A stretch of DNA of 64,000 nucleotides, from contig JAIQFK010000020.1 of assembly GCA_020073305.1 (NCBI GenBank), positions 62,001 through 126,000 of the forward strand, written 5' to 3'. The stretch is from Terriglobia bacterium (lineage in GTDB: Bacteria; Acidobacteriota; Terriglobia; Bryobacterales; Bryobacteraceae). The translations under genes and the position numbers were made by a program. Within the stretch, counting starts at the first letter, position 1; each line of letters opens with the position of its first letter. The notes below the pieces were generated by a model. It did no database searches and was not told the origin of the DNA. It saw only the letters and a list, made by a program, of their open reading frames with translations. Positions 56,771-57,424 of this stretch are shown here, piece after piece.

Positions 56771-57088
56771 TTAACCGGCCTGCTTCGCAGCTTTAGGCTT
56801 CTGATCCACAACGCCGAGGATCTCGTCCTCGCGCATGATCAGATACTCTTCGCCGTCCACCTTGATGTCGCTGCTGGAATACTTGCCGAACAGGATGTGG
56901 TCGCCGACTTTGACGTCGACAGGAACCAGCTCGCCGTTCTCAAGGCGCTTGCCATGCCCAACGGCGATGACCTCGGCCTCCTGCGGCTTTTCCTTGGCCG
57001 AATCGGGGATTATGATCCCCTTGATTGTGGCTTCTTGCTCCTCGATCCGCTTCACCACGATGCGATCGGAGAGGGGTCTAATTTTCAT
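56771..57088 (-). CDS. groES: Co-chaperonin GroES
   Basis: 105 residues from ATG 57088. The core '[20 protein letters not shown]' and the mobile loop '[20 protein letters not shown]' with the GII/P contact for GroEL are followed by '[20 protein letters not shown]' and '[14 protein letters not shown]'. The C-terminus is extended by a Lys/Ala tail ('[11 protein letters not shown]'). GGAGG stands 9 bp before the ATG, but the frame upstream is open without a stop back to 57424, so a longer product is possible. GroES caps GroEL and here probably serves the adjacent groEL. Confidence 0.95.
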
Positions 57089-57424
57089 GCTGTTTAACCT
57101 CCAGTTAGGATTGATTTGTGAGATTCGTCTGGCCAACTCTTTATTGACCTTGATCCTCTTGTACCGGGGATCTTGAGCGATCATTTGCCGAACCTGATCG
57201 CGCAGCTCCTGCCAGTCACGGATGAAATAGCCTGCCTGATCGTTCCCCAATACTTCGGCGCGCTTCTCTTCGAGGATGGCGATCACGGCCAACGTATCGG
57301 TGCGATCCTGTTCGGTCTGCTTGGTGGCCGCTGACGCGAGCGCTCTGGCGACGCGATCAAACTCGCCACGTACCTGTACCTTGATCTGCTCCGCCCAGTC
57401 CAGCTGATTCGTCGTGCCAATCAT
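57089..57424 (-). CDS. Helical domain reading in frame into groES (fusion or upstream ORF)
   Basis: From ATG 57424 a 112-codon segment runs directly into groES with no stop. It is helical and charged: '[20 protein letters not shown]', '[20 protein letters not shown]', '[20 protein letters not shown]' and '[17 protein letters not shown]'. It looks like an intact small soluble domain rather than a random extension; I do not recognise the family. A 217-residue fused protein would put this domain in front of the GroES dome. Alternatively a 1-nt frameshift has removed a stop: a TAA sits in another frame 3 bp before the groES GGAGG. Confidence 0.6.
57098..57102 (-). promoter_or_regulatory. Internal Shine-Dalgarno for groES
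   Basis: GGAGG on the minus strand, 9 nt before the groES ATG and inside the upstream frame. It supports independent initiation at 57088. Confidence 0.6.

Follow-up and report, generated by a model that had tools for sequence, protein, structure and literature searches.

A conserved helical protein, UP, whose reading frame continues into groES in a Bryobacteraceae genome

In the window, a stretch of 64,000 nucleotides from a Terriglobia bacterium genome (G000), the gene for a small conserved protein, named UP here, runs without a stop codon into groES. We consider it probable, at roughly 70%, that the stop of UP was lost in this genome, that GroES is made mainly from its own start, and that the read-through protein is a private by-product. 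UP and groES would then be neighbouring genes, the stop having been lost within the short variable junction beside the groES start. GroES would be made mainly from its own GGAGG and ATG 57088 and act as a normal lid, presumably for the product of the neighbouring groEL. Ribosomes starting at UP would read to the end of groES without encountering a stop, giving a UP-GroES protein of 217 or 236 residues. The observations in support are the open frame, the stop in ten relatives with the same gene order, the conservation of UP and the ribosome-binding site.

The open frame and the groES start site

Translation of the minus strand from 57424 to 56771 gave 217 residues with zero internal stops, as the preliminary description had claimed for the frame from ATG 57424 through groES. 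The product consists of 112 residues, followed by GroES, which begins at ATG 57088 and ends at the stop 56773-56771. An earlier ATG in the same frame, at 57481, overlaps as ATGA the TGA of an upstream minus-strand ORF for a Transgly_assoc-family protein (57478..57729; longest listed ORF from TTG 57798), and the longer product is likely to be the one of 236 residues that starts there. From stop to stop the frame measures 293 codons. Openness upstream of groES is not rare: among the groES matches listed, which reach down to E 1.2e-33 with the window's own groES falling below, seven places were open over 183-339 codons from stop to stop. Six of these frames were read (187-339 codons), and their upstream parts looked noncoding by eye; the seventh, L123, had no motif match and so is not among the six. 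What exceeds chance in the window is the conservation of the upstream part as a protein, not the openness alone.

The groES part (56771..57088, minus strand, 105 residues, stop included) matched the Cpn10 family of Pfam (PF00166) over profile positions 1-93 of 93, with 113.8 bits against a cut-off of 21.1 (E 3.9e-33), and exceeded the cut-offs of three NCBIfam GroES subfamily models. The groEL gene (55146..56732, minus strand, 528 residues) lies directly downstream. The window thus resembles the groESL operon in its full-length Cpn10, its own Shine-Dalgarno sequence and the adjoining groEL, and differs from it in that the upstream frame enters groES without a stop. Altogether the genome carries three groES genes (C34, C41 and the window) and two groEL genes (C34 and the window).

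The internal Shine-Dalgarno sequence of the preliminary description was found as GGAGG at 57098..57102 on the minus strand, nine bases before ATG 57088. A GGAGG at this distance from an ATG is a good start site, and a ribosome that has begun at UP cannot terminate before the end of groES in the window sequence. Provided that the sequence is correct, the open frame and this start site should yield plain GroES and a certain amount of UP-GroES; we infer that internal initiation is dominant and that the fusion is a neutral or minor product. A GGAGG also precedes groES in L061 and L064, two relatives in which UP keeps its own stop. A TAA of the +1 frame, earlier placed just before the GGAGG, actually lies just after it (57096-57094); the TAA just before it (57107-57105) belongs to the other frame.

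Control elements of the groES genes were also sought. A CIRCE-like element at the window's groES was rejected: the core pattern, with two mismatches allowed, matched four times in the window, where 4.17 matches were expected, and none of the four lay close to groES. The CIRCE-like match at the C34 locus ends 80 bases before groES, and chance could explain it. A promoter and terminator scan gave sites no more numerous than in shuffled sequences.

A conserved helical family upstream of groES

The upstream part of the frame (57089..57424, minus strand), defined by translation, relatives and an AlphaFold2 model, comprises UP and a linker of about 12 residues. Its roughly 100 UP residues represent a real, conserved and mostly helical protein family. 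The contig scan of genomes yielded six relatives with 55-67% identity, all from metagenome-assembled genomes titled Acidobacteria, Bryobacterales, Terriglobia or Acidobacteriia. With an 11-row alignment and an E-value threshold of 0.001, UP was detected, own genome included, in at least 48 of 257 genomes from its order. Samples of the class and of the phylum gave at least 32 of 399 genomes, four belonging to other families, and at least 3 of 396, these being the own genome and two others in its family. All these counts are lower bounds, because scoring was confined to the initial candidates in each genome (up to 19 or 12).

Measured from where the match begins, and not from a start codon, the UP proteins of 47 relatives are 96-117 residues long, with a median of 102. 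All 24 columns that reach at least 90% conservation in these 47 rows are retained in the window's UP. The rows omit six of the 53 loci read, namely L092 (cut by the contig end) and L093-L097 (divergent or longer). In comparisons over 92 codons, mismatches at codon positions 1, 2 and 3 numbered 21, 12 and 54 against L052, 22, 20 and 55 against L057, 21, 20 and 33 against L049, and 13, 19 and 30 against L098. Position 3 leads against all four relatives, clearly for L052 and L057 and weakly for L049 and L098. This third-position excess, together with the 24 retained columns, argues that UP is not decaying. The window's UP departs from the stand-alone architecture, in which the protein ends at its own stop after about 96-117 residues. 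Four distant members (L094-L097, 31-40% identity) run on in frame into a second part of about 100 residues; this second part carries a motif like RYMGFDD..G.R.FKFGRLP.

Searches of family databases support the earlier statement that the helical domain is an unrecognised one. No Pfam family exceeded its cut-off, the best for the window protein being TrmO_C with 16.5 bits against 27.1, and 11 UP members gave 18 Pfam families, each from one member (best E 0.0092). NCBIfam gave no match at E up to 10, and PADLOC none at E up to 1. Against PHROGs, 18 weak families were obtained (best E 0.0011), and each was hit by at most three of the 11 members; the sole named one is a tail protein (E 0.11, one member). 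A profile search of the PDB gave a single match at E 0.48, and tblastn of the window's UP against plasmids and phages gave none at E 0.01. The AlphaFold2 model, built from seven sequences, is mostly helical with a mean pLDDT of 74.2. With this model, Foldseek found no match at E 0.001 or better, and VIA gave a best Z of 7.9 among 167 chains, within the range that the tool deems common for helical models. Such generic helical matches of a predicted model are no evidence of a new fold.

Probable loss of the stop between UP and groES

We read 53 relative loci (L049-L101), made up of 49 of the 52 order-level places and four from the class sample; the three places omitted were the window's own, one in G085 with a fragment of 37 residues, and the weakest match of all, from G070. 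Ten of the 53 have UP immediately before groES-groEL and in the same orientation. The preliminary description had proposed to look for the same fusion in related genomes, and the outcome went against it: none of the 53 loci carries a UP-GroES fusion, and UP ends with its own stop in all ten with the UP-groES-groEL order. The spacing between UP and groES in these ten was -4 nt in L052 and L056, -1 nt in L057, +4 in L049, +21 in L079, +33 in L061, +37 in L074, +38 in L053, and +39 in L064 and L077. Relative to UP, groES lies in frame 2 in L052, L053, L056 and L057, in frame 1 in L049 and L074, and in frame 0 in L061, L064, L077, L079 and the window.

As described in PMC10666635, unidirectional gene pairs overlapping by 4 or 1 nt are coupled by termination-reinitiation, and coupling is almost abolished at spacings of 21-39 nt. 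The UP/groES pairs of L052 and L056 (-4) and L057 (-1) resemble the coupled pairs of that study, whereas six relatives, with UP and groES 21-39 nt apart, differ from them. The window also differs from the pairs so described: the TGA overlapping its groES ATG is out of the UP frame, so that no termination takes place at its junction. The stop-at-start coupling arrangement of L052, L056 and L057 is lost in the window.

At the junction, the last 12 or so codons before groES lie outside the conserved UP domain, within the groES leader. This leader (57089..57125, minus strand), read through as the linker, resembles the groES leader of G002, a genome of the same genus (locus L110) with no UP there; the two gave a local score of 48, against 30 for the best of 1000 shuffles. 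The shared sequence may be the groES leader as such or, alternatively, the remnant of a lost UP tail. A simple calculation gives an unselected stretch of 12 codons a chance of about one in six of lacking stops and keeping the frame, and the fused frame therefore calls for no special explanation after loss of the stop.

In both L052 and L057, UP stops on a TGA at the groES start, and compared with these two the window is shifted by a net one base (groES frame 0 versus 2). Aligned by eye, the sequences over the groES start read AAA TTA GGA ACA TGA in L052, AAA TTA ACA GCA TGA in L057 and AGG TTA AAC AGC ATG in the window, and the distance from TTA to ATG is five bases in L052 and L057 and six in the window, which would put the shift between these two triplets. 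MAFFT aligned the window's TTA with the TTA of neither. The proposal that a shift of one nucleotide could explain the missing stop fits the net one-base difference from the nearest relative, L052, and the stop was most likely lost, as judged from these sequences, by such a shift; a mutated stop codon is the alternative. Four of the ten relatives already have groES in the UP frame with a stop between, and a substitution in an ancestor so arranged would serve as well. The cause of the loss is thus not proved, the tail being variable and the TTA comparison made by eye.

Another point against the stop-loss explanation is that UP is intact, yet as sequenced is obtainable only as a fusion. This lack of decay leaves three possibilities: the event happened recently, UP still functions in fused form, or the base is erroneous. 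A mistake in assembly or sequencing, with the real UP ending at or before the groES start, is a much less probable account than stop loss. It would fit the stop in all ten relatives with the gene pair and the one-base frame difference from L052 and L057, and a base error at the junction would leave groES undisturbed. The assembly figures, however, are good (51 contigs, 99.89% completeness, 4.96% contamination), the longest run at the junction is only three A, and real indels are common in the variable UP tail.

The preliminary description had gone further, saying that a GroES dome with the extra helical domain would be a new type of chaperonin cap. This reading is without comparative support in the sequences compared: the ten relatives with the same gene order have a stop between the two parts, an outcome that the description itself had named as refuting, and the orthologous groES of G002 (82% identity) has no UP before it. 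A UP search of the G002 genome likewise gave no match. We regard it as unlikely that UP-GroES is a functional co-chaperonin whose subunits join the heptamer, with or without plain GroES among them, and place helical UP domains on the lid to form a specialised chaperonin together with the GroEL encoded next to it. UP has kept its 24 conserved columns, the frame is open with an internal GGAGG that permits both forms, the two other groES genes of the genome could do the housekeeping, and UP-like domains are N-terminal in the longer ORFs of L094-L097. Yet none of the ten relatives with the gene pair is fused, the linker falls inside the groES leader, and the orthologous groES of the same genus lacks UP. 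Were the fusion produced and put to use, it would represent a co-chaperonin carrying an additional tethered domain. The co-chaperonin of PMC3542282 likewise has an extra N-terminal part. That part is a second cpn10-like sequence, unlike the extra part of the window, which is helical and has no Cpn10 match, and the window fusion is not conserved. A literature search, mostly of titles and the beginnings of abstracts, did not bring up any bacterial GroES that carries an additional domain at its N-terminus.

A more elaborate version, in which the loss of the stop created, in a single lineage, a working two-form co-chaperonin whose mixed lid carries helical UP domains and recruits the partner of UP, perhaps the small protein S94, is to our mind similarly doubtful. 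Were it true, the stand-alone UP proteins beside groESL would be unfused co-factors of the same chaperonin.

Returning to the stop-loss reading, the UP tree (53 rows, many unresolved forks) gave L052 as the nearest row to the window by path (64% identity, groES next with an overlap of -4). The window is placed, with weak support (94/77), in a group with L098-L101, none of which has groES as the immediate neighbour of UP; this grouping, and the fact that the groES neighbourhood is not one clade, count against the reading. About 1.1 kb, including a gene on the opposite strand, separates UP from the start of the downstream groES in L100; in L101 the downstream groEL is 1.3 kb away from UP. The label 'UP next to groES' needs eight changes on the tree, at least four changes being forced by well-supported branches. 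Since adjacency is scattered on the tree and does not form one clade, UP and groESL were joined or parted more than once.

Neighbours of UP

The gene for S94 (name coined here; 54847..55131, minus strand) lies directly downstream of groEL in the window. Relatives of S94 directly follow UP in 15 of the 53 loci (L055, L058, L060, L062, L068, L070, L078, L081, L082, L084-L087, L089 and L091), and in 11 of the 15 the junction is ATGA, a four-base overlap, in the S94 frame. On this sequence evidence UP and S94 appear as a conserved two-gene pair. The full order UP-groES-groEL-S94 was present only in L057 and the window, within the stretches read (L079 is cut inside groEL). The frequent overlaps of stop and start suggest coupled translation. 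The useful part of the finding is UP itself, a family without a database name that recurs beside groESL (10 of 53 loci) or S94 (15 of 53) in acidobacteria, and it provides a lead for a chaperonin-linked co-factor.

Upstream of the Transgly_assoc-family ORF, and in the same direction, lies the gene for a SYLF (Ysc84) domain protein (57846..58553, minus strand). At L110 of G002, a relative, as judged by eye, of window ORF 58566-58967 stands directly before groES, and the SYLF, Transgly_assoc and UP genes are missing between the two. Because it is absent there, the SYLF-Transgly_assoc-UP stretch was gained or lost within the genus.

A protein of about 290 residues with an HTH is encoded near UP on the plus strand (59899-60768). 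Its relatives, as recognized by eye, lie near UP in at least four loci (L049, L056, L058 and L100), one of which belongs to another family of the class. It is possible, from its location, that this protein is a regulator of the UP cluster. Downstream of S94 lies an ORF of 2889 residues (46209-54878, minus strand), which we take to be cyclic beta-glucan synthase-like; its relatives stand beside UP in L100 and L101, from two genomes of another family of the class.
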